Source: Candidatus Levyibacteriota bacterium
GTDB taxonomy: Bacteria; Patescibacteriota; Microgenomatia; Levybacterales; UBA12049
Length of the DNA: 53,412 bases
Direction of reading: 5' to 3'
Assembly (NCBI GenBank): GCA_017991775.1
Contig: JAGOPV010000005.1
Span: 1 to 53,412 of the forward strand
This document shows positions 4,444-20,561 of this stretch, piece by piece. Below the pieces are notes generated by a model. The model was not told the DNA's origin, did no database searches, and saw only the letters and a list, made by a program, of their open reading frames with translations. The translations under genes and the position numbers were made by a program. Positions within the stretch are counted from its first letter, which is position 1. Every line of letters begins with the position of its first letter.

Positions 4444-5147
4444 TCAATGACTGTACCAACAAACGCTTTGCCAGTAAAGTAGTTCTCAATATTTTCAAAG
4501 TCCTCTCCATGCATAACGACAACTTTTGCACCCAATTCTTGAGCCTTTTTAGCGGCAATCGGATCAAATGGCGCGTTAAGACCTGGCTCCCACTCATCCC
4601 CTACTATCTTTCTGAATTCTTTCCAGGTCGTTTTATTTATTGGCTTAGCATTTTTAAATTTCTTGGGATCTTTGTCATAGACCTGGGCGATGTTACTTAA
4701 ATTAATCACTGACTTTACATCATAGTCCTCACAAAGAAGGAGAGCACAATAATCTGTTGACCAACCAGGCTTCCATCCGGCTGCCACCACGACTGGCTCG
4801 CTTGCTTTCCTAATGATCTCGTAATGCTTGAGGATATATGGGTGTGCTACATCGCGAAAGATAGTTCTAATAAGATGTGCATTAAGTTTGGTCGCGTGGA
4901 TCCCAAGATAATCAAGATCGTCTCGAGTCAACTCGTGTCCTACGACAGATCTACCTGCATCTCGATAGCGCCTGGCAATAGTGCCGCCACCAGAAACGAG
5001 AAAGAACTGACGATGAGGATGTGACTTAAGTTGTGCGCGAATAAATTTATTAAGATTGGAAAGAAATGTGGTATTTACTCCGCCTTCTGGAGCAACAAGC
5101 GACCCGCCGATAGACATTACGATTTTTTCAGTATAGGTACTGGTCAT
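4440..5147 (-). CDS. pyrH: Amino-acid-kinase family protein, probable UMP kinase (archaeal-like PyrH)
   Basis: 235 residues from ATG 5147. The family phosphorylates small substrates; UMP kinase makes UDP for pyrimidine nucleotide synthesis. Visible marks are the N-terminal SIGGSLVAPEGG, FLVSGGGTIARRYRD, VVAAGWKPGWSTD and the nucleotide-binding region INLSNIAQVYDKDP. The length and GWKPGWSTD segment fit the archaeal-type UMP kinase better than the bacterial hexameric form. Two in-frame upstream starts exist: an ATG at 5180, whose first nine bases repeat those at 5147, and a codon at 5210. None has a clear ribosome site. It overlaps recF by four bases. Confidence 0.82.
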   Translation of the reverse strand: MTSTYTEKIVMSIGGSLVAPEGGVNTTFLSNLNKFIRAQLKSHPHRQFFLVSGGGTIARRYRDAGRSVVGHELTRDDLDYLGIHATKLNAHLIRTIFRDVAHPYILKHYEIIRKASEPVVVAAGWKPGWSTDYCALLLCEDYDVKSVINLSNIAQVYDKDPKKFKNAKPINKTTWKEFRKIVGDEWEPGLNAPFDPIAAKKAQELGAKVVVMHGEDFENIENYFTGKAFVGTVIE

Positions 5148-5230
5148 AGGAGCATACCGAGGATGGCATGCACTGGTCATAGTAACACAAAGATTTTGGG
5201 CTAACAACAAACAAGATCTTACTAAGAATT

Positions 5231-5300
5231 TTATTCTTCGAGCAATGCGAGAAGTATCTCAACGGCTCAAGCTCTCGGCTTTCAGACTCGAACAGTAATA
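5231..5300. repeat. Intergenic copy of the dispersed palindromic repeat
   Basis: TTATTCTTCGAG at 5231-5242 and CTCGAACAGTAATA at 5287-5300 form imperfect inverted arms. The inner GAGAAGT-TCTCA segment matches the copies inside mutM, the glycosyltransferase and the mutY-like gene. This copy is in the opposite orientation. It lies just downstream of the mutM stop and could also act as an RNA hairpin at the end of the mutM transcript. Confidence 0.65.
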
Positions 5301-5326
5301 TTTTCACTTCACCCTGGACACCGCAG

Positions 5327-6307
5327 TTAACCTTGGCAGACGGGACAATAAAATGTCCCTCTTCCACCAACTACAATTCTCTCAATGAGAGTGCCACAAA
5401 TCGTACAATTCTCACCTGCTTTTCCATAGACCTCAAAGTGGTTTTGATACTCACCTTTCCCACCATCAACCTGGATAAAATTTACTTCACTTGCTCCGCC
5501 ATGTGCTAGACCTTTCTCCAAGACGTCAATCAAACTTCGGTAAAGTAGCGCTATCTCATCTTTTTCCAAAGAATTCGCTTTTCTTCGTGGATCAATCTTG
5601 GATAGAAAGAGTGCATCATTTGCATAGATATTGCCGACTCCTGCAATTTTTCGCTGATCCATAGTGAGCGTTTTGATAGGGGCACCTGATGACGAAACTA
5701 TTTCTCCAAATTCCTCTAGTGAAAGTGTCCCCAAAAGATCTTTCAGCGGCAACTCTTTGCCTAGTGATTTGAAGAAAGAAAGGGTATGAACATCCTCTGT
5801 CCTGACAATCTTTATCCAGCCAAATTTACGAATGTCATTGAAATACAGCATCGATGCATCACTTATTGTTCGAGGAGACGAAGTCCTCTGAGAACTTCTC
5901 TCTTGCCTCGCTAAATCAAGGCGGGCTTCGTTCGAAGCATAAGATTTACTATTCTGCAACGTGAAAATGACATGCGTGTGCTTATGTGGTAGTTCCTCTG
6001 GGAGAGATAGTCTTGGGTGAAAACTCTTTGATAGCCCATTCTGATTGCTGCCATCTGATTGCTGATTGCTCTGATAGATGAACTGTCCAGTCATTTTGAC
6101 ATGTGCCACCAAGCTTAAGCCATTTGCAAAATCGATCACAAGTCCTTTTCCAAATCGCCTCACCCCTTCTATCTCACTGTCTAGTATGTCCTTTGGCTCG
6201 CCATTAAAAATCCGCGCGAAGCGAATCTCAATAGCTGCGATACTTTTCCCAACAAGATATTTTTCAAGTCCTCTTCTTATTGTCTCTACTTCAGGTAGTT
6301 CTGGCAT
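5327..6307 (-). CDS. mutM: Formamidopyrimidine-DNA glycosylase (MutM/Fpg)
   Basis: 326 residues. It removes oxidised purines such as 8-oxoguanine and cuts the abasic site. The N-terminus is MPELPEVETIRRGL, with the catalytic Pro2 and Glu3. The helix-two-turn-helix (KIAGVGNIYANDALF) and the C-terminal zinc finger (CTICGTLIE ... GTFYCPVCQG) are intact. It is about 55 residues longer than the usual 270. The excess comes from a Ser/Gln/Asn-rich stretch encoded by heptanucleotide repeats (6042-6069) and an insert of nearly 30 residues containing ERSSQRTSSPRTI, encoded by the palindromic repeat at 5863-5943. Both fall in loops outside the catalytic motifs, so the enzyme is probably active. Confidence 0.96.
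   Translation of the reverse strand: MPELPEVETIRRGLEKYLVGKSIAAIEIRFARIFNGEPKDILDSEIEGVRRFGKGLVIDFANGLSLVAHVKMTGQFIYQSNQQSDGSNQNGLSKSFHPRLSLPEELPHKHTHVIFTLQNSKSYASNEARLDLARQERSSQRTSSPRTISDASMLYFNDIRKFGWIKIVRTEDVHTLSFFKSLGKELPLKDLLGTLSLEEFGEIVSSSGAPIKTLTMDQRKIAGVGNIYANDALFLSKIDPRRKANSLEKDEIALLYRSLIDVLEKGLAHGGASEVNFIQVDGGKGEYQNHFEVYGKAGENCTICGTLIERIVVGGRGTFYCPVCQG
5863..5943. repeat. Palindromic repeat inserted in frame in mutM
   Basis: Outer arms are TTATTGTTCGAG (from 5863) and GTTCGAAGCATAA. The inner hairpin is GAAGTCCTCTGAGAACTTC. This copy carries an extra internal segment of about 20 bp (GCCTCGCTAAATCAAGGC), itself hairpin-like. It is open in the mutM frame and encodes ERSSQRTSSPRTI. Confidence 0.8.
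6042..6069. repeat. Heptanucleotide tandem repeat inside mutM
   Basis: Four consecutive 7-mers read TGATTGC, TGCCATC, TGATTGC and TGATTGC. They encode the QSNQQSDGSNQ stretch. A change of one unit would shift the mutM frame; a change of three would add or remove seven residues. Confidence 0.7.
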
Positions 6308-6313
6308 GTCAGG

Positions 6314-6322
6314 ATTTTAGCA
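6314..6322 (-). promoter_or_regulatory. Extended -10 promoter of mutM (predicted leaderless)
   Basis: The minus strand reads TGCTAAAAT, followed by six bases and the mutM ATG at 6307. Transcription starting about 7 bases after the -10 box would begin at or next to the start codon. No clear -35 box is seen. Confidence 0.6.
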
Positions 6323-6354
6323 CAGTGGCCATTCTGGATTAGAAAGAATAACTT

Positions 6355-6363
6355 TGCTAGAAT
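6355..6363 (+). promoter_or_regulatory. Extended -10 promoter for the small-gene pair at 6435
   Basis: TGCTAGAAT on the plus strand, about 70 bases upstream of the first small gene. The leader contains the palindromes TTCATGAA and ATTGGCCAAT. No good -35 box is visible. Confidence 0.4.
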
Positions 6364-6434
6364 ACTCGATAACTTCATGAAGATTGGCCAATGCCGGCTA
6401 CATCATTCAAGAAGACCATTCAAAGGAGACGATC

Positions 6435-6536
6435 ATGGTTTGGTCGATCACCCATGTCAGGCGCTGGTGTGCAGCAATAGTCGCTCTGTTTCGACTTTGC
6501 AAAGCAGATGAGGCTGCCATGAAGGATATGCCATGA
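6435..6536 (+). CDS. Small unknown protein (33 aa), SD-led
   Basis: ATG 6435 is preceded by the strong Shine-Dalgarno AAAGGAGA (6422-6429) at good spacing. The 33-residue product begins MVWSITHVRRWCAAIVALF and ends in a charged tail. It has a short hydrophobic stretch, and I recognise no domain. The stop overlaps the next ATG by four bases (ATGA), the usual sign of translational coupling. It could be a leader peptide for the next gene. Confidence 0.55.
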   Translation: MVWSITHVRRWCAAIVALFRLCKADEAAMKDMP

Positions 6537-6673
6537 ACTATCATTTTCTATCCCTTGGAGAACTCACAGGCGACTGGGGAGATCCTAGTCCCACCAAATG
6601 GGTCTTTTGCCTCGCAGGCATAGCCATTTGGATTATTGTGGTCATAATCGCCTTCCCTAAAAAGAAGGACTAA
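6533..6673 (+). CDS. Small single-span membrane protein (46 aa)
   Basis: Starts inside the ATGA overlap with the preceding small gene; AAGGAT sits just upstream. The N-terminal half is polar (LGELTGDWGDPSPTKW). It is followed by one strong membrane helix (VFCLAGIAIWIIVVIIAF) and a positive tail (PKKKD), which suggests an outward N-terminus. A strong terminator follows 20 bases after the stop, so the pair forms a complete small transcription unit. The function is unknown. Confidence 0.65.
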   Translation: MNYHFLSLGELTGDWGDPSPTKWVFCLAGIAIWIIVVIIAFPKKKD

Positions 6674-6693
6674 TTTGACCACTACACCTCCAC

Positions 6694-6729
6694 CCTCCTC
6701 CTGTAGGTGACTATGGGAGGAGGATTTTT
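6694..6729 (+). terminator. Rho-independent terminator of the small-gene pair
   Basis: A perfect 8-bp stem, CCTCCTCC (6694-6701) and GGAGGAGG (6716-6723), is followed by ATTTTT. Confidence 0.85.
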
Positions 6730-6775
6730 CCAGCCTCAATCTAGCCTCATAATTTCTATTATATATCTTATAGTA

Positions 6776-6803
6776 TTGACATCTTGCATAGGAGTGCTAT
6801 AAT
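6776..6803 (+). promoter_or_regulatory. Consensus sigma-70 promoter of the structured leader
   Basis: TTGACA (6776-6781), a 16-bp spacer and TATAAT (6798-6803), with an extended TGC before the -10. This is one of the best promoters in the window. Transcription should start near 6810. Confidence 0.85.
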
Positions 6804-6833
6804 CCGATTTAAGGTAGTAATTACTATGAAAAT

Positions 6834-6857
6834 AGCCTCATATAGCAGGCTTTTTTT
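6834..6857 (+). terminator. Early terminator within the leader
   Basis: AGCCT (6834-6838) pairs with AGGCT (6847-6851) and is followed by a run of seven T. It lies about 25-45 bases after the predicted transcription start, so many transcripts may stop here. An open frame of 21 codons (6826-6891) runs through it and could be a leader peptide. Confidence 0.6.
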
Positions 6858-6910
6858 CGTTTTAGACACTACTCGTTCTTTAAAAGACTAGTTGCGTAAA
6901 TTTTGTAATT

Positions 6911-7040
6911 CCACATTTTAACTGTGGCCTTTTTGGTAGGAGCTACTCCCCTCTTCCTACCCAATATGCCACAGTTAATGCATGATCTTTTCACTATACC
7001 CTTATCATCTGGAAGATGATAAGAAGTGTGAAAAGACGAT
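6911..7040 (+). ncRNA. Structured leader RNA with two nested hairpins and an alternative terminator-like hairpin
   Basis: Element one has an 11-bp outer stem, TTAACTGTGGC (6918-6928) with GCCACAGTTAA (6968-6978), enclosing a 7-bp stem GGTAGGA/TCCTACC (6935-6941, 6955-6961). Element two has an outer stem TCTTTTCAC/GTGAAAAGA (6986-6994, 7028-7036) enclosing TTATCATCT/AGATGATAA with a three-base loop (7002-7022). A competing hairpin CCACA/TGTGG (6911-6915, 6923-6927) followed by CCTTTTT would block the first long stem. The arrangement resembles a transcription-attenuation leader or riboswitch-like element upstream of the zinc-ribbon gene. No known class is recognised. Confidence 0.65.
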
Positions 7041-7076
7041 CTTGTGGTAAACGATTAAGTATCCCTTGGAGGGGAG

Positions 7077-7256
7077 ATGACAGACATAACGAGTGTAGAA
7101 TTCTGTGGCAAATGTAAGAAGTACGTAGTGCTACACCTTGGTGTATGCCCTGAGTGCTTCAAAAAGCCCGAAAACAAAAATCGTCGAAAGTCGCGGACCG
7201 CCGCTAAAAAGCGGCGATCGTCCTCACGCAAGTTCCATGGAGGAAATCGTCGATGA
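7077..7256 (+). CDS. Small zinc-ribbon protein with basic tail (59 aa)
   Basis: ATG 7077 follows the strong Shine-Dalgarno GGAGGGGAG with little spacing. Two CxxC pairs, CGKC and CPEC, are separated by ten residues and make a probable zinc ribbon. The C-terminal half is very rich in Arg and Lys (NRRKSRTAAKKRRSSSRKF), suggesting nucleic-acid or ribosome binding. The stop overlaps the next ATG (ATGA). It lies behind the structured leader, so it is the likely target of that regulation. The base composition is visibly richer in G+C than the neighbouring operons. No family name is assigned. Confidence 0.7.
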   Translation: MTDITSVEFCGKCKKYVVLHLGVCPECFKKPENKNRRKSRTAAKKRRSSSRKFHGGNRR

Positions 7257-7669
7257 ACACATTGATGCTGGTCGATCTAGGAGTCGACCCAGCTGCCCTG
7301 GCAGCTGAGGAGGACGTTCTCTTCCGAGACATCATGGTCGGGCAAGGGCTCGATCCCGAAGATGAAGTCCCCATATTCCTGGCCCCCCTTCAAGTCGAAG
7401 GTGTGCTGATGGAGTTCGGCGCTGAAGACGGGTTCACAATCTGTCCCAAGCTCGTACAGCCATGCAGGCTGAAGGATTTCAGCGTTCGGACAATCAGGTT
7501 CTTCCGCCTTGCGAAGCAGGTCGGGCTTTTACAGCCAGCGATCAAGCTCTGGCTCTTTCTCGGCACGCCACAGGCATGTCGACGTTCAAAGGCGTGGAAA
7601 CGCCTTTCAATGTGGTTCACACGTCAAACGGCACGAAAAAATCAGCTCGCCCTGTCGGCGATGATCTGA
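7253..7669 (+). CDS. Hypothetical protein (138 aa) coupled to the zinc-ribbon gene
   Basis: Starts in an ATGA overlap with the zinc-ribbon gene and has GGAGG upstream (within 7238-7245). The N-terminal half is acidic (DPAALAAEEDVLF, GLDPEDEVPIF). The C-terminal half is basic and aromatic (IRFFRLAKQ, IKLWLFLG, KAWKRLSMWF). No domain is recognised. An overlapping frame at 7462-7794 is also open, but it lacks a ribosome site and has a less protein-like composition. Composition is G+C-rich like the preceding gene, hinting at shared, perhaps foreign, origin. Confidence 0.55.
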   Translation: MNTLMLVDLGVDPAALAAEEDVLFRDIMVGQGLDPEDEVPIFLAPLQVEGVLMEFGAEDGFTICPKLVQPCRLKDFSVRTIRFFRLAKQVGLLQPAIKLWLFLGTPQACRRSKAWKRLSMWFTRQTARKNQLALSAMI

Positions 7670-7681
7670 AAGGAACATCAA

Positions 7682-7828
7682 GTGCTAGAAGGCAACACCA
7701 CTCAGGACATCGCGAGCATCAGCTTGGCATTCTTTGCCGTAGTGTCCCTCATGATTATCGCGTATTGTGTGGCCAGCCAACGCGGCGATGGTAGCCTTTA
7801 CGGGCATCTCGACGGCGGACCGTACTGA
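7682..7828 (+). CDS. Small single-span membrane protein (48 aa), GTG start
   Basis: GTG 7682 has AAAGGAA upstream at good spacing. The product has a short polar N-terminus, one membrane helix (SISLAFFAVVSLMIIAYCVA) and a short Gly-rich tail. Its build resembles the 46-residue protein at 6533, although the sequences differ. A strong terminator follows shortly afterwards, so it is probably the last gene of the zinc-ribbon operon. Confidence 0.6.
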   Translation: MLEGNTTQDIASISLAFFAVVSLMIIAYCVASQRGDGSLYGHLDGGPY

Positions 7829-7853
7829 ACTGGACGCACTAGTCAATTTATCG

Positions 7854-7895
7854 CTTCCGTCCTGCGCAACTGCGCGGGGCGGAAGTCTTTCTTTT
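7854..7895 (+). terminator. Strong rho-independent terminator of the zinc-ribbon operon
   Basis: CTTCCG (7854-7859) pairs with CGGAAG (7880-7885). The stem continues inward through CC/GG and GCGC/GCGC with two G-U pairs and a four-base loop, and TCTTTCTTTT follows. The T run overlaps the stop of the convergent glycosyltransferase gene. Confidence 0.9.
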
Positions 7896-9072
7896 AAGAG
7901 GATTTCACCAAAGAGGAGATCTTTTTCTTAAATACATCTTCACTGAATTCTTTTGCTCTCTTCACACTTTCTTCCTTAGTCCACTTTTTCTTTTCAAATT
8001 CTTTTATCGTCTTTTTAAGACTTTCTACAGTTAATTCCTTAAAGAACATCCCTGTCTTTCCCTCAACTACAGTCTCTTTTACCCCACCAGAGTTATATGC
8101 GATAACTGGGAGACCCTGTCCCATTGCCTCAACTGGCGTGATACCAAAGTCCTCATCCTCTGATGCAAAAAGAAATGCCTTTGCCCCCTTCATTAATGCC
8201 AGCTTCTCTTCATCATTCACTTCCCCCACAAATTCAATATTGTTTATTGTTCGAGGAGACGAAGTGCTCTGAGAACTTCTCTCTTCGCTCGAAGAATAAC
8301 TACTGCCATTTGCCATTTCTCGCAGCTCTTCTCCATACCCTCCAAAGCCTTTTCCAAAAACCTTAAGTTGGATCTTGAGCTCTGAGCATGCTTTCACAAT
8401 AATATCCACATGTTTGGCACGTGCCAATCTACCCCCTGTCAAATAATAATCTCCGGATTTGCCATTTGCCATTTGCCATTTGCCATTTGCCAAACTGACA
8501 GGCGGATAGATCACGACGGCATTTTTACGATAAAACTTCTGAATTCTTCCTCTCACTTCTTCAGAATTAGCGATATATTGATCGACATTTTTAGATGCAT
8601 CAAAATCAACAATGCGCAGAAAATGATTTATGACTTCACCCACAACTCTTAAGGCTTTATTATTCTTCCACTCTCTGGCTGTCGCGTATCCATAAAGATA
8701 TCGAGGAGGTGTATGACAATAGCAATAGAGCTTGGCTGACTTTTTATTGATCATGTTGGGAAAATATGCTCCAGAAGCAGAGGAGATGATGACATCGTAT
8801 GAAGAGAAATCAAACTGCTTAAAAGCTAGGGGTGATAAAAGTCTGAGTGGACTAATGAGTTTTGCTTTAAAAGGAATCCACTGCAGGAATGAAGTGTGAA
8901 TCTTCCATCCGCCAGCTGGCGGATTAAAACGATCCCTATGTGGACCAAGATATGAAGGAAGATAAACGCTGGTATAGACATCAGCCTTAGGGTAGATATC
9001 ATGGAGCGCTTCAAGTACCCTCTCTGCTCCCCCATACTCTTTTATATAGTCATGAACTATTGCTACTTTCAT
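7894..9072 (-). CDS. Glycosyltransferase family 4 (group 1)
   Basis: 392 residues. It transfers a sugar from a nucleotide-sugar donor, probably to a lipid or surface glycan at the inner face of the membrane. The N-terminal Rossmann start is MKVAIVHDYIKEYGGAERV. The donor-binding C-terminal half has YYLTGGRLARAKHV and the E-x7-E motif region EDEDFGITPVEAMGQGLPVIAY. Three repeat-derived stretches interrupt it: a palindrome giving NPPAGGW (8907-8924), a heptanucleotide array giving ANGKWQMANGK (8461-8491), and a palindromic-repeat insert giving EERSSQSTSSPRTI (8244-8299). The exact sugar is unknown. Confidence 0.93.
   Translation of the reverse strand: MKVAIVHDYIKEYGGAERVLEALHDIYPKADVYTSVYLPSYLGPHRDRFNPPAGGWKIHTSFLQWIPFKAKLISPLRLLSPLAFKQFDFSSYDVIISSASGAYFPNMINKKSAKLYCYCHTPPRYLYGYATAREWKNNKALRVVGEVINHFLRIVDFDASKNVDQYIANSEEVRGRIQKFYRKNAVVIYPPVSLANGKWQMANGKSGDYYLTGGRLARAKHVDIIVKACSELKIQLKVFGKGFGGYGEELREMANGSSYSSSEERSSQSTSSPRTINNIEFVGEVNDEEKLALMKGAKAFLFASEDEDFGITPVEAMGQGLPVIAYNSGGVKETVVEGKTGMFFKELTVESLKKTIKEFEKKKWTKEESVKRAKEFSEDVFKKKISSLVKSS
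8244..8299. repeat. Palindromic repeat inserted in frame in the glycosyltransferase
   Basis: The best-preserved copy, 56 bp. Outer arms are TTATTGTTCGAG and CTCGAAGAATAA, with one mismatch. The inner hairpin is GAAGTGCTCTGAGAACTTC. It is read in the same frame as the mutM and mutY-like copies. Confidence 0.85.
8461..8491. repeat. Heptanucleotide array (GCCATTT) inside the glycosyltransferase
   Basis: Four perfect tandem GCCATTT units plus a partial fifth. A shorter run of two units lies at about 8316-8329 in the same gene. Seven is not a multiple of three, so a change of one unit would shift the frame. Confidence 0.85.
8907..8924. repeat. Perfect 18-bp palindrome inside the glycosyltransferase
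   Basis: ATCCGCCAG is followed directly by its reverse complement CTGGCGGAT. It encodes NPPAGGW in the acceptor-binding half. Confidence 0.7.
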
Positions 9073-9148
9073 AGTGTGAATTTGAATAATGATGTATGAA
9101 TAAAGAATGGCGAGCTTGAGACCTTATTCATTCTTCTTTCGACTTTAT

Positions 9149-10099
9149 TTATAACAACCCAAGCTGCTCTTCGTCTTTATCCTTTTTAACTTCAATTTTT
9201 ACTTCTTCAACTGGTGGTGGATTTTTGGCGTCAAGGCGAATAATGAGACTCTTGAATTGATGTGCCTCAAAACCTTTTCGAACTGAGACAAAATCAAGAT
9301 CCTCTATCCTGCATGTATCCAATTTCAAATGCACTGGTGCATCAAGAATAATTGCTGCTAACTTCTTAGCGAGTGCTCCTTGCTCTGCATCAGTTGCCAG
9401 CTTTAACGCAGTACCCTCGGGAAGCTGATCTAATTTCATAAAAATATTTTCAAACGTGCCAAACTTTTGCAGGAGAGATGCCGCAGTTTTTGGACCAATC
9501 CCTGTGATACCAGGATATCCATCAGACTGATCACCAATAAGAGCTTTATAATCAATAAATTGCGCTGGAGTAACGCCGTATTTCTCCTCCACCATTGTGG
9601 CATCAAAGAGTGCAGTCTTTGTCATGCCAGTTATCGTCATCAAGATCTTGGTCTTGTCATTTACCAACTGCAAAAGATCTCTATCCCCTGTCACGATGAT
9701 GACCTGATCAATTCCCTCCTCAACAGCTTGCCGCGCATATGTCCCAATCACATCATCGCCCTCATAGCCATCAGCTGAGGCGACGTGGACTTTCATTACT
9801 TCAAGGAGTTCATCTATTAATTTAAATTGATCAGATAAATCACTTTCCATTTTGGGTCGATGTGCGTGATAGCCCGCAAACATACTCTGTCTGACCGTAG
9901 GCTTGGTGCGATCAAAACATATGACAAGATGAGTTGGCTTTTGCTCTGTTAGAACTGTCAATAGCATTGAGAAGAAGCCGTAGACTGCATTGACTACTTG
10001 CCCACTAGAGTTCGTGAGGCCTGGCATCGCATGATAGGCTCTATGCAAAAGGGCTGAGCCGTCAATCAAAAGGAGTTTCGTAGAAGGGGTTTCTGACAT
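9149..10099 (-). CDS. Stand-alone 5'-3' exonuclease (DNA polymerase I N-terminal domain type)
   Basis: 316 residues. A flap endonuclease / 5'-3' exonuclease that removes RNA primers and 5' flaps. The PIN-like fold motifs are LLLIDGSALLHRAYHA, VICFDRTKPTVR, DGYEGDDVIGTYA, IIVTGDRDLLQLV and DYKALIGDQSDG. The helix-hairpin-helix GITGIGPKTAASLLQKFG is also present. It stops after this domain; the last 30 residues are charged and probably disordered. No polymerase domain follows. Such separate exonucleases are common in Patescibacteria. It starts six bases after an extended -10. Confidence 0.92.
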   Translation of the reverse strand: MSETPSTKLLLIDGSALLHRAYHAMPGLTNSSGQVVNAVYGFFSMLLTVLTEQKPTHLVICFDRTKPTVRQSMFAGYHAHRPKMESDLSDQFKLIDELLEVMKVHVASADGYEGDDVIGTYARQAVEEGIDQVIIVTGDRDLLQLVNDKTKILMTITGMTKTALFDATMVEEKYGVTPAQFIDYKALIGDQSDGYPGITGIGPKTAASLLQKFGTFENIFMKLDQLPEGTALKLATDAEQGALAKKLAAIILDAPVHLKLDTCRIEDLDFVSVRKGFEAHQFKSLIIRLDAKNPPPVEEVKIEVKKDKDEEQLGLL

Positions 10100-10105
10100 A
10101 GCGTC

Positions 10106-10114
10106 ATTGTAACA
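10106..10114 (-). promoter_or_regulatory. Extended -10 promoter of the exonuclease gene (predicted leaderless)
   Basis: The minus strand reads TGTTACAAT, then six bases, then ATG at 10099. Confidence 0.6.
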
Positions 10115-10133
10115 TGTTTATGGAGAATTTCTT

Positions 10134-12005
10134 TTAGGCTTTCTTAGCAATTGCAGGAATCACTTTAGGACCCATCAGCCTGACAAAGTCATCGGCATCA
10201 AGTGTCTCTTTTTTGATGAGCTCTTCTGCGATCTTATCAAGGCGCTTTCGAAGCTTTTTCATAACACTTTCTGCTGTCTTATATCCAGCTTCGATAATTC
10301 TTCCAACTTCAACATCGATCTTGGCAGACATCGCATCTGAGATATCTTTCTGCTCATACATCGAGCGCTGATCACTATCAAGATTGAGAGGTCCGAGATC
10401 ACTCATTCCAAACTGCACTACCATAGCACGCGCAACTCTCGTTGCCTTCTCGATATCATCTGATGCTCCTGTCGTGATCTCGCCAAAGACGATCTCCTCT
10501 GCTGCTCGACCTCCAAGCATGACTGCAATCTGCTCGATAAGGCGAGTCTTTGTCTCATGAACTCGCTCTATCGGCTCCATCATAGTGTGTCCCAGACTCA
10601 TACCACGAGAAACAATAGATATCCTATGGATTGGATCCATATGAGGCATATGCCATGAAACAAGTGCGTGTCCTGCCTCATGATATGCAGTCATTCTCTT
10701 GTCCTCATCAGACTGAAGCCGCTTTTTCTCAGGACCTAACTTAACCTTTGTCGCAGCTTCCTCGAGATCTACCATATCAATTTCTTTCTTCTCAAGGCGC
10801 GCTGCGAGAATAGCTGCCTCATTGAGCATATTTTCAAGATCAGCCCCTGAGAAGCCAACGGTTCTCTTTGCTATCTTTTCCCAATCAACATTTTTTTCAA
10901 ATGGCTTGCCTTTGGCATGGATACCTAATATTTCTTTACGACCCTTAACATCTGGTAGCTCAAGCGCAACTCTTCTGTCAAAACGACCTGGGCGCACAAG
11001 AGCTGGATCTAGGACATCAGGTCTATTCGTAGCTGCCATGACTACGATCTGCTCATTTTGTGTAAATCCATCCATCTCCACCAAGATCTGATTCAAGGTC
11101 TGTTCACGCTCATCATGGCCACCCATAGGACCAATGCCCCGCTGTCTTCCGATAGCATCGACTTCGTCGATGAAGATAATCGCTGGTTGTGCTTTTTTAG
11201 CAGTATTAAAAAGATCTCTCACGCGAGATGCGCCAACTCCCACAAGCATTTCCATAAATTCAGATCCTGCCATAGAGAAGAAAGCTACATTTGCCTCACC
11301 TGCTGTTGCTCTAGCCAAGAGTGTTTTACCAGTTCCTGCAGGTCCGATCATCAAAACACCTTTTGGAGTACGCGCTCCGAGTGCTTTGTATTTCTGTGGA
11401 TTCTTCAAGAAGTCTACGATCTCAGTGAGCTCTTGCTTTGCCTCATCCACCCCAGCAACATCTGCAAATGTAGTCTTTGGCGTATCTTTGTTAAATAACT
11501 TTGCTTTTGATTGTCCAAAAGAGAAGATACTCTCCTGGGATCCCCTAGCCTGCTTAAAGATCACATAGAAAAATCCGATCATAAGAAGTGCTGGAAGGAA
11601 AATACCCAAGACACTGAGCCATCCATTCATGCCTGAGTTGTCCTTAATCCCAACTTTAAGATTCTTGTCTTTCAAAGATACTCCTGCGTCATTGAAGAGG
11701 GAGTAAACGTCTGCTGATGGCTCTTTAAAAGCGACTACTTTCTCGCCATTTTTTCTGAGGACTTGGAGCTTCTCATCATTCACAACGATCTCTTTAACAT
11801 TTCCAGCCTTAACATCAGAGATAACTTGAGAAAGAGGGACTGTTTGGCCTGCATCTCCTGCCCCACTAAATGAGCCAATAAGCATCACAAAAAGGAGGAG
11901 CAAGAAACCATAAAGAAGGAGATTTTTCCAAGAGGCTTTGACCTTCAATTTAACTATTTTATTCTTTTTGTCCCGAGAGGGAACTTTGCGGGATTGCACA
12001 GCCAT
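10134..12005 (-). CDS. ftsH: ATP-dependent zinc metalloprotease FtsH
   Basis: 623 residues from ATG 12005 ([12 protein letters not shown]). A membrane-bound AAA+ protease that degrades misfolded and short-lived membrane proteins. There are two membrane helices (about residues 28-45 and 130-150) with the extracytoplasmic domain between. Walker A is GPAGTGKT at 221-228, Walker B is [11 protein letters not shown], and the second region of homology contains [20 protein letters not shown]. The zinc site HEAGH has its first His at about residue 442. The N-terminus carries an extra basic cytoplasmic stretch. A longer start at 12047 would add 14 residues unlike the family. Confidence 0.97.
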
Positions 12006-12904: not shown

Positions 12905-13240
12905 TTAGTACATTTTGGAACCAAGTGGTGAGTCTTTATCTGGACGAACGAGCACTACGTTGTCCTGACTATCATTTACTCCAAGAGTAAGTACTTCAGA
13001 AATATATGGGCCAATTTGTTTGGGTGCAAAGTTAACAACACAAAGGACAAGAGAGCCTACTAATTCTTGAGATGAATAATTCTGAGTGATTTGCGCACTA
13101 GAATTCTTTACTCCTATTTGTGGACCGAGATCGATCTTTAATTTATATGCAGGTTTTCTGGCTTCAAGAAAGTCACTTACTTCAAGGATTTTTCCCACTC
13201 TGATATCTACCTTTTCAAAATCACTATATGAGATATCCAT
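12905..13240 (-). CDS. csaA: tRNA-binding-domain protein, CsaA-like
   Basis: 111 residues from ATG 13240. The whole protein is one OB-fold of the EMAP/CsaA type: DISYSDFEKVDIRVGKILEV, then PAYKLKIDLGPQIGVKNSSAQIT, and the C-terminal NFAPKQIGPYISEVLTLGV and VVLVRPD. CsaA was described as an export-related chaperone; the fold binds tRNA in synthetases. The length matches stand-alone CsaA. Its ATG shares a base with the trpS stop (TAATG), so the two are translationally coupled, and it may assist tRNA handling by TrpRS. Confidence 0.88.
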   Translation of the reverse strand: MDISYSDFEKVDIRVGKILEVSDFLEARKPAYKLKIDLGPQIGVKNSSAQITQNYSSQELVGSLVLCVVNFAPKQIGPYISEVLTLGVNDSQDNVVLVRPDKDSPLGSKMY

Positions 13241-14229
13241 TACTTTAGCGTGATAAAGCCCATCTTTTTCTTCACTTCTCCAACTGTCGCCTGAGCTATG
13301 CCACGACACCTTGCAGTATGTTCTCTCAAAATTTCATCGACGATCTGTGGGTTTTCTTCAAAATACTTTCTCTTTTCTTGGAATGGTGCAAGCTCTGCAG
13401 ATATAGCGCCAGCAACATCTGTTTTCATGTCAGAATATCTGATAACTTTGTTCTTATAGTCCTGAACATATTTCTGGTGCAATTCTGCTCCTCCGAATAG
13501 ATATGCAAGGATAAATAGATTTGCAACACCACCCTCTTGTGGGATAGATCCGCCTTTTTTACCGTCATCTGTAGGGACTTTTGCAAGTCTCGCCTTTACC
13601 GTCTCGGCGTCATCTGTCATGTTGATAAAGCTGCCATCGACTGACTTACTCATCTTGCCATCCCCCATAAGTGATGGGACATACTCCCCTTTTGTCTTGA
13701 ATCTTTTTGGCTCTGGAAAAGTATCACCGTATGTAGCGTTAAATTTACGAGCTATCTCACGAGTCACTTCAAGATGTGGCTCCTGATCAATACCAACTGG
13801 CACGAGTTCTCCTTTATACAGCATGATATCTGCAGCCATGAGTATTGGATAATACAGTAAGCCCATATTTACATACTGAGGATGCTGAGCTTTTTTATCC
13901 TTGTATGTTGGCAGATCTTCAAGTCGGGAGACTTGATAGATGGTACCAAGAAGGTACGCCAGCTCCATATGCTCTGGGACGAGTGACTGGATCTCTAAAA
14001 GACATTTTTCAGGATCGAGTCCTGCGGCAAGGTAATCAAGAATAATACTTCGAGTAGACTCAGCAAGGGTTTCTTTATCATAAGGTGTAGTAATCGCATG
14101 AAGATCGACAACGGAAAATACTGCGTCATACTCCTCTTGCAGCTCCAGCATGCCTTTAACAGCCCCCATATAGTTGCCTAGATGAAGTCTGCCTGTTGCT
14201 CGTATACCAGAATAAACTCTCTTTTTCAT
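13240..14229 (-). CDS. trpS: Tryptophanyl-tRNA synthetase
   Basis: 329 residues, the normal length for this class I synthetase. It charges tRNA-Trp. The HIGH-type motif is HLGN at residues 16-19, and KMSKS is at 192-196 (GDGKMSKSVDGS). Other family marks are YSGIRATGRLHLGNY and PVGIDQEPHLEVTREIA. It has its own extended -10 six bases before ATG. It lies downstream of a TrpR-family regulator and two isonitrile-synthase-like genes, but a hairpin separates it from them. Confidence 0.97.
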   Translation of the reverse strand: MKKRVYSGIRATGRLHLGNYMGAVKGMLELQEEYDAVFSVVDLHAITTPYDKETLAESTRSIILDYLAAGLDPEKCLLEIQSLVPEHMELAYLLGTIYQVSRLEDLPTYKDKKAQHPQYVNMGLLYYPILMAADIMLYKGELVPVGIDQEPHLEVTREIARKFNATYGDTFPEPKRFKTKGEYVPSLMGDGKMSKSVDGSFINMTDDAETVKARLAKVPTDDGKKGGSIPQEGGVANLFILAYLFGGAELHQKYVQDYKNKVIRYSDMKTDVAGAISAELAPFQEKRKYFEENPQIVDEILREHTARCRGIAQATVGEVKKKMGFITLK

Positions 14230-14299: not shown

Positions 14300-14563
14300 C
14301 TACCACTTAATCACTGGGTATGGGCGATCGCATGCCTCTTTGTGCTCTTCATAATATACCTCTTCTTCACAGGGAGGATTGGCAAAATCATGCACAATAT
14401 CTTTTCCTGCATCATAAAGAGTTCGCCCCACATCTTTCACGCCTTCTCCGCTCCTTAGTCCCGCATCAGCGCCTATTGCTGCATTCGCAACAAGAGATGC
14501 GCCAAGTGCAATTCTAAGGGAGTTCTTTTTGACCAGTTCTTTTGCATATATTAACGATTCCAT
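14300..14563 (-). CDS. Small hypothetical protein (87 aa), last gene of the TrpR-led operon
   Basis: ATG 14563 has the near-perfect Shine-Dalgarno AAAGGAGGTG (14580-14571), which overlaps the stop of the preceding gene. Residues about 14-36 are hydrophobic and small (LRIALGASLVANAAIGADAG), possibly a membrane or signal segment. The rest is charged, with two Cys (PPCEEEVYYEEHKEACD). It resembles the small SD-led genes on the plus strand in its unknown nature. Its place right after the two isonitrile-synthase-like genes suggests a linked role. No domain is recognised. Confidence 0.7.
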   Translation of the reverse strand: MESLIYAKELVKKNSLRIALGASLVANAAIGADAGLRSGEGVKDVGRTLYDAGKDIVHDFANPPCEEEVYYEEHKEACDRPYPVIKW

Positions 14564-14578
14564 CTTTTTTCACCTCCT

Positions 14579-15682
14579 TTACAACTTTTGCTCAAAATAG
14601 AGAAAGTTGCCATCAGGATCACAAATCTTTGTCGGATCTTTAACTGTCGATTCTTTTAGGAAATCTACAAAGTACTTGATCTCAAAAGACTTTTGGCCAT
14701 TTTTAATAGATACAATTGGTACTCCATGATGTGGAAGAATATTGCTTGTAGATGGGGTTGCTCGTATGCCAAATTTTTTCTGACTTCCATGGAGACTGAG
14801 CTTTAGCTGCGATTTCAGCACAGAGTCTTCTATGCCCTTATTTACAACCTCTAAATAGGAAAGATACCCTACTGCTGTCGAGAAAAGAGTCGGATAGTCA
14901 TCCTCAGAGATTGTCTCTTTTGAAAAAAGTTCTAAAAGAAAATCCCTCTGATCTTCAAGCCTAAATTTATCTAACTGTAGGCTGAGGGCAATTGTTGGGA
15001 TTACAGCCTGGAGACTAGGCCTGAACTGCTCTATATTCTCTTTCATTTGCTCAATCTGCAGACCAAGATCTTTCAGGTAATTATCTTTTGTTCCAGATAC
15101 AATTTCTGCTAGTGATCTAATTTTAACCCCCTCATTTCCATCAATTTTTTCCAAAATTCTATGAAGCGAACTTTTGAACTCATCCGAATGATTCTTAGTT
15201 ACTTTAAAAACAGACCTCAAGGCATCAGTCTCTTCAAGAAGAGTAATATGTAGTGTCAGAGGCGTGTGCATCGACACTAGCTTTGTAACCTTGCTTAACC
15301 TGAATAAGAAAAGTATTTCCCCGAGATTTGGCAACGTCTCAAATCCAGTTTTCAGAGGCACTGGGCACTTAAACGGGAGACAGAGAAGAAATGCTGAGAT
15401 TGTATGTCCTGGAGTTTCCTTCAAGTATTTACTGACTTCTTTCCCTACGGCGTCTTTATTGCCAATCGAAATTTCATCTTCCTGCAAGAAGGATACTAGA
15501 GAGCTATGATCATATTTTATTGGAGTCAGCTCTTCGCATAATGAAATAACTTCTTTGAATTCTATTCTCCGCTCTGGGAATAAAACTTCTGGAATTTCTT
15601 CGTCCAATGGATACTTAAATGGAATAGCACTAGAGATCCTTTGCCCTGTTACTTTTTGTGCAAATGTAATTGAATAACTCAT
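14579..15682 (-). CDS. Divergent DIT1/PvcA (isonitrile synthase)-like protein, second of a tandem pair
   Basis: 367 residues. I compare it with the DIT1/PvcA family, which converts Tyr or Trp to vinyl isonitriles or related isocyanides. Seen: PGHTISAFLLCLPFKCPVPL, then TLPNLGEILFLFRLSKVTKLV, aligning with the family pattern 'fPxKsPn...lPDxgExxaLxxL'. A late LPHHGVPIVSIKNG recalls the PWHG-type motif. It is more diverged than its neighbour and may have lost or changed activity. The start is preceded by AAAGAGGAGAG within the end of the upstream gene and overlaps it by four bases. No alpha-ketoglutarate oxygenase partner (PvcB) is nearby. Confidence 0.55.
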   Translation of the reverse strand: MSYSITFAQKVTGQRISSAIPFKYPLDEEIPEVLFPERRIEFKEVISLCEELTPIKYDHSSLVSFLQEDEISIGNKDAVGKEVSKYLKETPGHTISAFLLCLPFKCPVPLKTGFETLPNLGEILFLFRLSKVTKLVSMHTPLTLHITLLEETDALRSVFKVTKNHSDEFKSSLHRILEKIDGNEGVKIRSLAEIVSGTKDNYLKDLGLQIEQMKENIEQFRPSLQAVIPTIALSLQLDKFRLEDQRDFLLELFSKETISEDDYPTLFSTAVGYLSYLEVVNKGIEDSVLKSQLKLSLHGSQKKFGIRATPSTSNILPHHGVPIVSIKNGQKSFEIKYFVDFLKESTVKDPTKICDPDGNFLYFEQKL

Positions 15683-16653
15683 ACTCTCCTCTTTCCTTGA
15701 TTGATATATCCAAATGGCTCTTGCCCCAATTCATTTATGATAATTTGATGAACATGAGTTGACCTAGCCTGATCCTCTACTGCCTCGTACGGAACAACAT
15801 CAATTCGAGAGGTGCCCCCTAACAATACTCCTCTGCCATGCTGTGGCGGCGGATTCGTTGCAGGAGTTCTATAAGGATCAATAGACAATGTGTCCATTTT
15901 CCCTGAAGCATTAAGGGAGCAGTAGATATATCCATTAGCTCCATATTCTTCATCTAGAAATGCTTGTACACTACTTCTCCCTGAACCATCAAGTTTTTGA
16001 TGTTTGGCATTTCTTATCGCAACATAGGATTTTGCCATATCTTCTGGAGCCACCCCTTCATCAATCTGCCTTTTAGACATCGCTCTTTGCATTACTCCGA
16101 TAAACGGCTCGTAATCTTGTGCCTCGATCTTCGCCTTCTCATATACGACATTACGGCCAAAGTCTTCGTCTCGATCAATAATAGATTTCAGTGGAACAAA
16201 CCTAAAGCCATCAGGGTTAACAGCATTTGCAAGAGAAGCAACACCGTCTTCATACTCCTGAATCTCCTCATCACTTACATCAAAAAGATCAAACGATTTA
16301 AAGAACTGTCCTTCTGTTAAAAAGGTGAATCTAGCACCAGGAGGATAAAAGCTCTGAACTCCATAAATGATGTCATTAAGGTGAAGAAGAAAACCAAGCT
16401 CTGCAAGATCTGGTGATGTACGGCCTGCATTTGCAACCTCAGATGGACTCTTATGTGCGACGGCTGTGAGAACAAAGTCTATTGGCTTCCCAATCCCCAC
16501 CTGACCATCTAACGACGCCTTCACTGATGGTAGGACTGGACGCGAGCCTCCGCCTCTGGCACTTTGCACTTCTTTGAAAAGAAAATCTGAGAGATTATTA
16601 GACTTGGGAACAAGACGATCGCGAGACAGCTTGGCATCCATAAACTCATTCAC
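15679..16653 (-). CDS. DIT1/PvcA (isonitrile synthase)-like protein, first of a tandem pair
   Basis: 324 residues, close to the usual size of PvcA/IsnA. Residues about 50-155 follow the family pattern well: GKPIDFVLTAVAHKSPSE, RTSPDLAELGFLLHLNDI, SFYPPGARFTFLTEGQFF, then FDVSDEEIQEYEDGVASL and RFVPLKSI. The C-terminal part has DTLSIDPYR and PPQHGRGVLLGG. Family members use Trp or Tyr with ribulose-5-phosphate to make an isonitrile. A GTG at 16653 is used; ATG 16641 is an alternative. It sits downstream of a TrpR-family gene and overlaps its paralogue by ATGA. The assignment rests on remembered motif patterns, not a search. Confidence 0.65.
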   Translation of the reverse strand: MNEFMDAKLSRDRLVPKSNNLSDFLFKEVQSARGGGSRPVLPSVKASLDGQVGIGKPIDFVLTAVAHKSPSEVANAGRTSPDLAELGFLLHLNDIIYGVQSFYPPGARFTFLTEGQFFKSFDLFDVSDEEIQEYEDGVASLANAVNPDGFRFVPLKSIIDRDEDFGRNVVYEKAKIEAQDYEPFIGVMQRAMSKRQIDEGVAPEDMAKSYVAIRNAKHQKLDGSGRSSVQAFLDEEYGANGYIYCSLNASGKMDTLSIDPYRTPATNPPPQHGRGVLLGGTSRIDVVPYEAVEDQARSTHVHQIIINELGQEPFGYINQGKRRV

Positions 16654-16693
16654 AGTGTCAAAATAAACCTCTTTTGTAAAAAGCGATTCGCTA

Positions 16694-16777
16694 TCAGCCG
16701 AGCCAAACTAACCCCTGGCCATCAAGTTGGCGAGGGGTGTCCTCAAATACCATAGTGCGTCGTTGTTCTATGCTCAT
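16694..16777 (-). CDS. Possible 27-aa leader peptide with hairpin
   Basis: An ATG at 16777 opens a 27-codon frame ending LDGQGLVWLG, with one Trp codon three residues before the stop. An RNA hairpin ACCCCT/AGGGGT (16738-16733 and 16716-16711) with an inner CCA/TGG forms inside the frame. A weaker AGCGAATCGCT followed by TTTTT comes next. It lies between the TrpR-like gene and the first isonitrile-synthase-like gene, where an attenuator might be expected. A single Trp codon is weak evidence. Confidence 0.3.
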   Translation of the reverse strand: MSIEQRRTMVFEDTPRQLDGQGLVWLG

Positions 16778-16785
16778 AATATCTT

Positions 16786-17037
16786 TTATATTGAACTAAA
16801 TCTTCCTCTCTGAATTTCTTTTGATCCTCTTGTCACTGTTGCAACTCCAATGCCCAACTCTTGTGCAATCTTACTTTGTGGAATGCCCTTTTTAAGCATC
16901 TTCACAATCTGAAGTCTAGTTGGTATCTCCTCCAACTCTTTTGGAGTAAGTATCCCCTCTAAAAGATTTGTTAGTTCTTTTTTATCCTTACAAGCAAGAA
17001 TCACATTAAGTAATTCATCAAAAGATTTATTCTTCAT
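16786..17037 (-). CDS. TrpR/YerC-family transcriptional regulator
   Basis: 83 residues from ATG 17037. Helix-turn-helix protein of the Trp-repressor superfamily. The conserved LLEGILTPKELEEIPTRLQI and the recognition unit IPQSKIAQELGIGVATVTRG are clear; in TrpR the equivalent segment binds CTAG-containing operators with tryptophan as co-repressor. Some family members (YerC) do not bind Trp. Its own promoter carries a 12-bp palindrome centred on ACTAGT, so self-regulation is likely. It heads a cluster of two isonitrile-synthase-like genes, a small protein and, after a hairpin, trpS. Confidence 0.88.
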   Translation of the reverse strand: MKNKSFDELLNVILACKDKKELTNLLEGILTPKELEEIPTRLQIVKMLKKGIPQSKIAQELGIGVATVTRGSKEIQRGRFSSI

Positions 17038-17044
17038 ACATACT

Positions 17045-17073
17045 ATCATACTAGTATGTTGATATATTGTCAA
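17045..17073 (-). promoter_or_regulatory. Promoter of the TrpR-like gene with overlapping CTAG-centred operator
   Basis: On the minus strand TTGACA (17073-17068), a 17-bp spacer and TATGAT (17050-17045). The perfect 12-bp palindrome CATACTAGTATG (17047-17058) covers the spacer end and most of the -10. Start codon ATG 17037 falls about 7 bases after the -10, so the mRNA is probably leaderless. The ACTAGT core is shared with known trp operators. Confidence 0.75.
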
Positions 17074-17733: not shown

Positions 17734-19069
<1,336 letters not shown>

Positions 19070-19092: not shown

Positions 19093-20496
19093 TTATAATT
19101 TTCGAACTTCTTCTTTAAACTGCAGGCCTCGATCTTTGTAACTCTTGAACATATCAAAGCTTGCGCACCCAGGTGAGAGAATAACGACATCCCCAGGTAA
19201 TGCAACTTTTGATGCTGCCATCACAATTGTAGCCATATCTTTAGCTCCCTCTAGATACACAGCTTTAGGTTTCTCGCTAGGATTCTGCTGAATAGCTGCC
19301 TCAATTGCTTCGCGAATTCTTGGCCATTCTTCACCAATGCCAATGATGGTTGTAATATTTAAAGCCTTTGCGATCACTTCCCCTAGATACGTAAAATCAC
19401 TGCTCTTTGATGATCCTCCTAGGATCAAGACCTCTGGCTGTGTAAATGCCTGAACTGCAGCTGCTGCTGTCTCAGGAGTGGTCGAGAACGAATCATTGAA
19501 GTACTTCACGCCATTCACCTCAGCTACTTCTTCAAGTCGATGCTCAAGTCCTTTAAATGTCGCAAGGACGCTATAGAGATCTTCTTTTGAGGCTCCTGCC
19601 AATGTTGAAGCCATGCATGCCGCCATCACATTCTCAAGATTATGATGACCTAAAAGCGCAATTTTATCAGCATCGATGATCTTCCATTCAGCTCCTTTTA
19701 CTCGAAGCCACACTGCACCTTCTCTAAAGAAACTTCCCTCCTCTGTACTAGGCCTTTCAAGACTGACATAGAAGACTTTACCATCTGTATGGATATCTGA
19801 TTCATGACTTGCGACATAATCTCGATTGATGACTGCAAAACACTCTGGCTTCTGGAAACGTAAAATATTTCTCTTTGCATCTATGTATTCCTCAACTGTG
19901 GCGTGATAATCTAGATGCTCACTCGTCATCATTAAGACCACTGCGATATCAGGACTCACAGTGAGATCTTGGAGCTGGAAGCTTGAAAGCTCCAATACCA
20001 CGCGGGATGTCTCATCAAGAAGATGGAGAAAGCCTAATGGGGGTGTGCCGATATTGCCACCAAGATATGTCTCAAAGTCTGCTTTTTTGAGCATTTTTGC
20101 GATAAGCGAGGAGGTAGTCCCTTTTCCTTTTGTCCCTGTCACTCCAATGACAAGACACGGGCATAGCTCTAGAAAGATCTGGGTTTGAGAGGTGATCTTA
20201 GCTCCGTTTTTTTCAGCCTCCCCAATTTCAGGAAGTGATCGTTTAATACCTGGACTTCGAACAATCAGATCAAATCCCTTTAGATGAGAAAAGGCATCCT
20301 TGCCAAGAACCACCTCTCCAAGCTTGTCTACTTGTACTTTTACACCCTCATCAAGAGATTCTTTCTGATCAAAGAACGTGATGTGACTGCCATATTCCTT
20401 TAGGAATTCTGCGCTCGATAACCCTTCAACTCCAACACCCAGTATTGCTACTTTCTTATCTTTAAATGCTGCTGCCTGATCAACTGTGAGCTTCAT
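19093..20496 (-). CDS. murD: UDP-N-acetylmuramoylalanine--D-glutamate ligase
   Basis: 467 residues from ATG 20496. It adds D-Glu to UDP-MurNAc-L-Ala in cytoplasmic peptidoglycan synthesis. The N-terminal Rossmann motif is KKVAILGVGVEGLSSAEFL. The ATP loop is IGVTGTKGKGTTSS, followed by the central LDYHATVEEYIDAKRNI. The C-terminal domain has YFNDSFSTTPETAAAA and LSPGCASFDMFKSYKDRG. A start at 20544 is excluded because the extended -10 TGGTACAAT sits 7 bases before ATG 20496. No other mur genes are adjacent. Confidence 0.96.
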   Translation of the reverse strand: MKLTVDQAAAFKDKKVAILGVGVEGLSSAEFLKEYGSHITFFDQKESLDEGVKVQVDKLGEVVLGKDAFSHLKGFDLIVRSPGIKRSLPEIGEAEKNGAKITSQTQIFLELCPCLVIGVTGTKGKGTTSSLIAKMLKKADFETYLGGNIGTPPLGFLHLLDETSRVVLELSSFQLQDLTVSPDIAVVLMMTSEHLDYHATVEEYIDAKRNILRFQKPECFAVINRDYVASHESDIHTDGKVFYVSLERPSTEEGSFFREGAVWLRVKGAEWKIIDADKIALLGHHNLENVMAACMASTLAGASKEDLYSVLATFKGLEHRLEEVAEVNGVKYFNDSFSTTPETAAAAVQAFTQPEVLILGGSSKSSDFTYLGEVIAKALNITTIIGIGEEWPRIREAIEAAIQQNPSEKPKAVYLEGAKDMATIVMAASKVALPGDVVILSPGCASFDMFKSYKDRGLQFKEEVRKL

Positions 20497-20503
20497 ACCC
20501 AGT

Positions 20504-20512
20504 ATTGTACCA
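20504..20512 (-). promoter_or_regulatory. Extended -10 promoter of murD (predicted leaderless)
   Basis: The minus strand reads TGGTACAAT, then seven bases, then ATG at 20496. Confidence 0.6.
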
Positions 20513-20561
20513 AAATGTGCGTACAAAAGGCTATTTAAACCCACTTATTTAGTCTTATAGT

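Follow-up and report, generated by a model that had tools for sequence, protein, structure and literature searches.

In a 53,412-nucleotide stretch of DNA from a Candidatus Levyibacteriota bacterium (assembly GCA_017991775.1, contig JAGOPV010000005.1, positions 1 to 53,412; hereafter the window), a short leader open reading frame (ORF) ending just past a tryptophan codon precedes two tandem genes, here called A and B, whose products belong to the DIT1/PvcA family and which lie upstream of trpS. The junction between leader and A has the layout of the +1 frameshift site of prfB, with the UGA stop codon exchanged for UGG. We propose, with a probability of about 0.72, that these genes form an operon responding to tryptophan shortage, in which a +1 frameshift at a 'hungry' Trp codon would control the synthesis of A. 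The leader, its hairpin and the site form a cassette that recurs in ten genomes from two families. Of everything at this locus, the translational control tells the most, and it was overlooked by an earlier note made by a model from the sequence of the window. The genome of the window (G000) is a draft of 0.81 Mb in 30 contigs, and the nine other cassette genomes are drafts likewise; the genomes of its relatives mostly measure 0.5-1.6 Mb. All window coordinates refer to the minus strand, and gene orders are given in the direction of transcription.

Leader, hairpin and putative shift site of a recurrent cassette

The leader between trpR and A comprises 27 codons and ends in GQGLV-W-LG-stop; a short ORF ending in GQGLVW likewise stands upstream of A in G028, a genome of the same family. 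A block of 19 nucleotides (CAGGGGTTAGTTTGGCTCG) is identical in the two genomes, although their A proteins share only 45% identity (B: 34%). The zero frame closes shortly past the Trp codon, and the frame of A, which is the +1 frame, opens at TTT-GGC without a nearby start codon. Here GGGGT-NN-NTT-TGG reproduces the arrangement of the prfB frameshift site with UGG in place of the UGA stop, and the site of G005 (AGGGGTATCTTTGG) is the prfB site exactly, TGG again standing for TGA. GGGGT TA GTT TGG occurs a single time in the window, the chance expectation being 0.02. The ORF of A (15679-16653) does not simply start at GTG 16653: its frame opens farther upstream, at the putative frameshift site (16703-16715), which the earlier note had missed.

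The internal Shine-Dalgarno (SD)-like AGGGGT constitutes the 3′ arm of a hairpin with ACCCCT (folding energy -17.7 kcal/mol), the varying inner stem of which shows compensatory changes. Covariation across seven genomes reached 0.419 compared with a shuffle mean of 0.229, a value attained in 0 of 500 shuffles and by none of the sliding controls (maximum 0.186); kinship can inflate this control, although the seven sequences represent seven genera and mostly precede unrelated genes. Neither leader nor hairpin was recognised in an Rfam search.

Copies of the cassette were collected with several search tools. A gapped DNA pattern applied to 73 genomes of the family returned five true copies and two matches, in G057 and in contig C29 of G000, that were dismissed as chance since their +1 frames extend for only 1-2 codons; the reversed-pattern control gave one match. 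A first covariance model, made from five copies and run against the whole class, added G025 and G681. A second, made from seven, matched 6 of the 82 genomes of the order, with none other at E<=0.01, and added G701, G757 and G657 in the family of G681. All five genomes obtained from model searches were subsequently checked by context. The cassette is thus found in 6/73 genomes of the window's family and in 4/50 of that of G681. A phylum match in G276 proved to be no more than a GC hairpin preceding different genes, and weak class matches in G666, G650, G461, G504 and G089 had neither leader nor +1 ORF; class matches below E=0.01 besides G657 were not each inspected.

In all ten genomes, the leader and a GGGG[T/A]-NN-NTT-TGG site are followed by an open +1 ORF of 53-470 codons, the shortest (53) being that of G657. 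The +1 frame is devoid of ATG, GTG and TTG for 17-40 codons in G000, G028, G005 and G050, and the chance that no stop would appear across all ten genomes is about 10^-4.5. Immediately before TTT GG, seven of the ten genomes carry a TAG in the +1 frame, meaning that the change of frame must happen at the site. The surroundings are recurrent as well: trpS lies downstream of eight cassettes, the other two being on contigs that end before trpS, and a TrpR-like gene stands just upstream in five genomes. In G028 and G681 the cassette is preceded by a T-box-like leader, in G757 by such a leader and a tRNA-Trp(CCA) gene, with trpS following.

Genes, proteins and regulators around the cassette

What the cassette precedes varies: PvcA-like genes, a DUF3182 gene, four types without a Pfam family and a small zinc ribbon. 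PvcA-like proteins are found in G000, G028 and G681 (85.2 bits to PF05141 for the G681 protein), and DUF3182 (1.9e-49) followed by an aspartoacylase-like protein in G701. Unknown proteins take this place in G005, where hydrolase and methyltransferase genes come next, in G050, in G757 and in the related pair G473/G025, whose shared protein is unrelated to the PvcA profile and is followed in G473 by a SET-domain gene. A 53-amino-acid zinc-ribbon-like ORF, which weakly resembles Lar and the CXXCXGXG domain of DnaJ, lies between cassette and trpS in G657 (L143, about 650-860, minus strand). In G681 the following gene, judged by eye, encodes a fusion of a YbaK-like deacylase domain with tryptophanyl-tRNA synthetase (TrpRS) that contains no Trp (L156:5384-6883, minus strand). 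Taken together, Trp accounts for 6 of the 3215 residues of the +1 proteins (0.19%) compared with 0.66% in the genes of the window (P=1e-4), and most of these proteins have none. This fits the proposed role because proteins made under Trp-less conditions should avoid Trp.

Profile searches bore out the family assignment of the earlier note: A and B score 56.5 and 39.3 bits against PF05141 (DIT1_PvcA; gathering cut-off 26.4), and they are the sole two matches in the genome. In phmmer searches, A matches solved PvcA-type isonitrile synthases (9dh4, 2.7e-13; 3e59, 3.4e-9) and B has no match by sequence in the PDB; a profile comparison of A with B gives E=1.6e-4. With 49.2 and 11.2 bits, respectively, both stay below the NF045653 equivalog of PvcA-type isonitrile synthases (>600 bits). 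A motif alignment of A, B, the G681 protein, PvcA (3e59), 9dh4 and relatives from the phylum shows that every protein conserves the KSP/KCP Lys and the PD-x-x-E Glu, so that a total loss of candidate catalytic residues in A and B, which the earlier note had named as fatal to its idea, is not seen. Other motifs are lost, and differently in each. A retains YPPGA and TEG and has lost the C-terminal RLSxHP; B has a K-L-S-L-H-like stretch and PHHGVP but neither YPPGA nor the DG/TEG motif any longer, its PDxxE Asp being replaced by N in G000. Neither chain has the complete PvcA motif set, while the single PvcA-like protein of G681 possesses both N- and C-terminal motifs. An AlphaFold model of A was too poor for use (predicted local distance difference test 35.6, built on a two-row alignment).

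By sequence, both proteins are divergent members of the PvcA type. Since the motifs are divided between them and a single G681 protein has both ends, they may be divided duplicates, possibly paired on a small molecule, and they would most likely act together on it during starvation. That this involves isonitrile or N-formyl-type chemistry is a tentative suggestion, slightly less probable than its negation. A substrate other than Trp, for instance Tyr, appears more likely, given that a Trp-consuming reaction would be odd in an operon switched on during Trp shortage.

PF05141 is rare in the lineage, being detected in 5/100 relatives and 10/380 genomes of the phylum (E<=1e-3). The order murD - NTase - A - B - trpS in G028 indicates that the arrangement is not due to chance. 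Protein A is present in 2/73 family genomes and absent from a genome of the same genus, and the idea of an ancient synteny tying A/B to trpS was dropped, the pair occurring in just those two. The ancestral family order is murD-TGT-[TrpR]-[variable genes]-trpS-ftsH, and in G047 trpS is immediately preceded by genes that, judged by eye, resemble those of trp biosynthesis (L110:5058-10499, minus strand); the variable genes thus belong to a tryptophan-related operon. With a TrpR-like gene near trpS across the family and a Trp-codon leader, the tryptophan link noted earlier is real. Nucleotide-pattern searches of viral contigs gave no relatives of A or B, and a related-locus search over genome contigs gave one short match, which was spurious.

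Other PF05141 proteins were encountered along the way. Long ones of 593 amino acids with a near full-length profile match of ~1e-32 (L029:742-2523 and L030:5875-7656, both minus strand) have a helix-turn-helix-like region (HPNTLR.WE) at the N-terminus and are extended at the C-terminus, and in G424 a methyltransferase-like gene adjoins such a protein. A separate PvcA-like family of ~340 amino acids with the motifs PFGGYK...PEVDWAE and FW.G.G is dispersed across the phylum (L020, L021, L023, L026, L027, L028). Finally, L024 holds a B-like PF05141 protein (75.9 bits) in an operon-like run (4499-9147, minus strand) whose other members look like a ROK kinase, an M20-type peptidase and a pair of HAD phosphatases, with an additional PvcA-like ORF at 9294-10358.

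Within the window, the transcription order is murD, TGT, a 220-amino-acid ORF without a named family, the TrpR/YerC-like regulator, A, B, an 87-amino-acid protein and trpS (Table 1). From the regulator onward this is the order reported before. The start of B overlaps the end of A (ATGA), no PvcB/IsnB oxygenase gene adjoins either, as had been remarked, and the 87-amino-acid protein has no match in Pfam or NCBIfam profile searches. Farther downstream of trpS lie what we take, from sequence and general knowledge, to be a mutY-like gene and ftsH.

Table 1. Coordinates of the cassette, its neighbours and the T-box-like leaders of other genomes
Feature	Position	Strand	Remarks
murD	19093-20544	-	
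TGT	17734-19029	-	
Sigma-70-like promoter TTGACA-17-TATGAT	17045..17073	-	11/12 consensus positions match
Palindrome CATACTAGTATG, TrpR-box-like	about 17047-17058	-	overlaps -10; read from sequence
TrpR/YerC-like regulator	16786..17037	-	likely ATG 17037; ORF list has TTG 17073
Leader ORF MSIEQRRTMVFEDTPRQLDGQGLV-W-LG-stop, zero frame	16694..16777	-	leader of this type also in 9 other genomes
Hairpin ACCCCT...AGGGGT, inner stem GCC/GGC	16711..16738	-	folding and covariation
Putative +1 frameshift site GGGGT TA GTT TGG	16703..16715	-	P-site GTT 16706-16708; A-site Trp codon TGG 16703-16705
Protein A, 341 amino acids, no Trp, PF05141	15679..16704	-	+1 frame from GGC 16704; alternative start GTG 16653
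Protein B, 367 amino acids, no Trp, PF05141	14579..15682	-	own SD AGGAGAG
87-amino-acid protein, SD AGGAGGTG	14300..14563	-	sole Trp is last residue; unknown family
trpS, tryptophanyl-tRNA synthetase	13240..14229	-	no Trp residues; PF00579 3.9e-58
T-box-like leaders preceding cassette	L019:3740-4080; L156:8150-8575	-	
T-box-like leader preceding cassette	L163, upstream of tRNA-Trp gene		

The identification of the upstream regulator as TrpR/YerC-like stands, with matches above cut-off to both PF01371 (4.7e-21, 75.1 bits, cut-off 27) and TIGR02531 yerC (43.8 bits, cut-off 42.2). The palindrome CATACTAGTATG is a putative operator for this protein, and an mRNA made from the sigma-70-like promoter would be almost leaderless. 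Instead of the regulator, it is a T-box-like leader that precedes the cassette in G028, G681 and G757. These leaders combine AACA-GGTGGCACAGC with a terminator, CCCTTGTAAG...TTTGCAAGGG-T7, and carry TGG in an upstream loop; GGTGGCACAGC and the terminator are conserved between G028 and G681, and an Rfam scan of the region gave no match in either genome. In many members of the family, TrpR is also separated from the gene that follows by a conserved leader comprising two hairpins and the terminator ACCTCC...GGAGGTTTTTT (L094, L095, L096, L097, L098, L104, L107 and L108, in each case after the TrpR-like gene), which looks like a second Trp-linked attenuator.

A proposed Trp-tRNA switch and its rivals

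The TrpR-like repressor probably governs transcription by acting on the promoter of its own gene, a task that the T-box-like leader would take over in G028, G681 and G757. The leader would be translated up to ...GGG TTA GTT, where the SD-like AGGGGT, or a refolded hairpin containing it, would strain the ribosome as in prfB. As long as Trp-tRNA(Trp) is abundant, UGG would be read and translation would terminate at UGA two codons on. Once it becomes scarce, the empty A site would allow a +1 slip from GUU to UUU, with GGN (Gly) as the next codon; the slipped ribosome would then synthesise A, and B would follow through the ATGA overlap. Across the ten genomes, it seems reasonably likely that a natural, modular hungry-Trp-codon switch activates varied, mostly Trp-free starvation proteins beside trpS, with TrpR or the T box serving as a second sensor.

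Several points weigh against this proposal. The P-site codon is GUU in nine of the ten genomes and CUU only in G005, and GUU slips less favourably, since its re-pairing should be weaker than that of the prfB codon CUU. In G681, G757 and G657 an ATG or GTG stands one codon past the site, ~10 nucleotides from AGGGG, which could be an ordinary SD there, and the leader of G473 contains an in-frame ATG. The N-terminal extensions of A in G000 and G028 show modest homology (P=0.01), which is not significant within the portion that precedes every start codon (P=0.28). No frameshift was seen in prfB of G000, G028, G005, G473 and G050, so there is no other sign that these ribosomes make use of such sites. 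By themselves, the model scores of G681 and G657 are weak. As TrpRS itself often has few Trp residues, the low Trp content can be no more than supportive.

The same internal start codons in G681, G757 and G657 would suit a Trp-codon attenuator or coupling ORF that works without frameshifting, in which the hairpin hides an ordinary SD and the gene starts at an internal codon (GTG 16653 in the window) through reinitiation or because translation of the leader opens the hairpin. Trp-codon leader peptides are, after all, already known. Likewise, uncharged tRNA-Trp induces anti-TRAP of Bacillus subtilis through a T box (PMC11255114). Such an arrangement sits poorly with the 17-40 start-less codons in G000, G028, G005 and G050 and with later starts at which no SD is seen; the frame is all the same open and always +1, and a ribosome stalled at UGG would mask AGGGG rather than expose it. 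We hold it to be unlikely. Less likely again is an ordinary isonitrile cluster in which A and B make a Trp or Tyr isonitrile from ribulose-5-phosphate and the proximity of trpS is incidental. PF05141 membership and the resemblance of A to 9dh4 and 3e59 by sequence speak for it, as does the ancestral murD-TGT-trpS-ftsH order, into which insertion beside trpS could be chance; the missing adjacent PvcB-like partner and the division of motifs between A and B speak against it. Unrelated genes occupy the same place under the same cassette elsewhere, which connects the cassette to Trp control and not to isonitrile chemistry.

That all assemblies are drafts raises the question of whether a sequencing or assembly error, or decay of A, could have produced the frame change. 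Site, phase and surrounding hairpin, however, recur in ten genomes from two families and before several unrelated downstream genes, and the ORFs behind the site are intact and otherwise conserved. Assembly error was rejected owing to this recurrence, and error or decay as a whole is scarcely credible. The hungry-codon switch remains our preferred explanation of the locus.

Relation to known systems

A and B share with the PvcA/IsnA isonitrile synthases and DIT1 the match to PF05141, the KSP and PDxxE motifs and PxHG. They differ from these in forming a tandem, divergent pair with divided motifs and no adjacent PvcB, expressed apparently by frameshifting. Another point of reference is the rtpA (anti-TRAP) operon of B. 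subtilis, which likewise has a Trp-codon leader peptide but is expressed without a frameshift to give a product that regulates trp genes. A further likeness to the present system lies in the sensing of uncharged tRNA-Trp through a T box (PMC11255114). The zinc ribbon of G657 appears only reminiscent of anti-TRAP.

With the +1 cassette of prfB, which encodes RF2, the cassette has in common a short zero-frame ORF whose shift codon comes after ~21-38 codons (E. coli prfB: codon 26), an internal SD-like GGGGT at 2-nucleotide spacing, the NUU_U slip, the +1 direction and a product encoded for the most part in the +1 frame. In vitro, +1 shifting at CUUUGA is promoted by internal SDs and by hairpins lying upstream, and a hungry sense codon replacing UGA in the A site has likewise been tried (PMC6321510). 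Unlike in prfB, the A site holds the sense codon UGG instead of UGA, the P site usually holds GUU and the hairpin includes the SD; the gene under the cassette is not prfB, and the sensed molecule would be Trp-tRNA rather than RF2.

For decades, shifts of frame at starved codons have been familiar as errors. Hungry-codon frameshifting, in which the shift occurs where a charged tRNA is scarce (Gallant; reviewed in Atkins 2016, PMC5009743), is what we propose for the Trp codon here, the difference being that it has been studied as an error or in artificial constructs. The 2016 review stated that no trans-frame proteins were known to be made for starvation conditions in this way (PMC5009743), and no starvation-specific hungry-codon product was found in the later literature, in a search that subscription journals mostly lay outside. 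If true, the cassette would be a natural example of productive hungry-codon frameshifting, filling the gap named in that review (PMC5009743)—an amino-acid sensor built from the logic of prfB, portable between genes and perhaps searchable for other amino acids. It would also single out a group of proteins, the divergent PvcA-like pair A and B among them, as likely products of tryptophan starvation in bacteria whose physiology is difficult to study.

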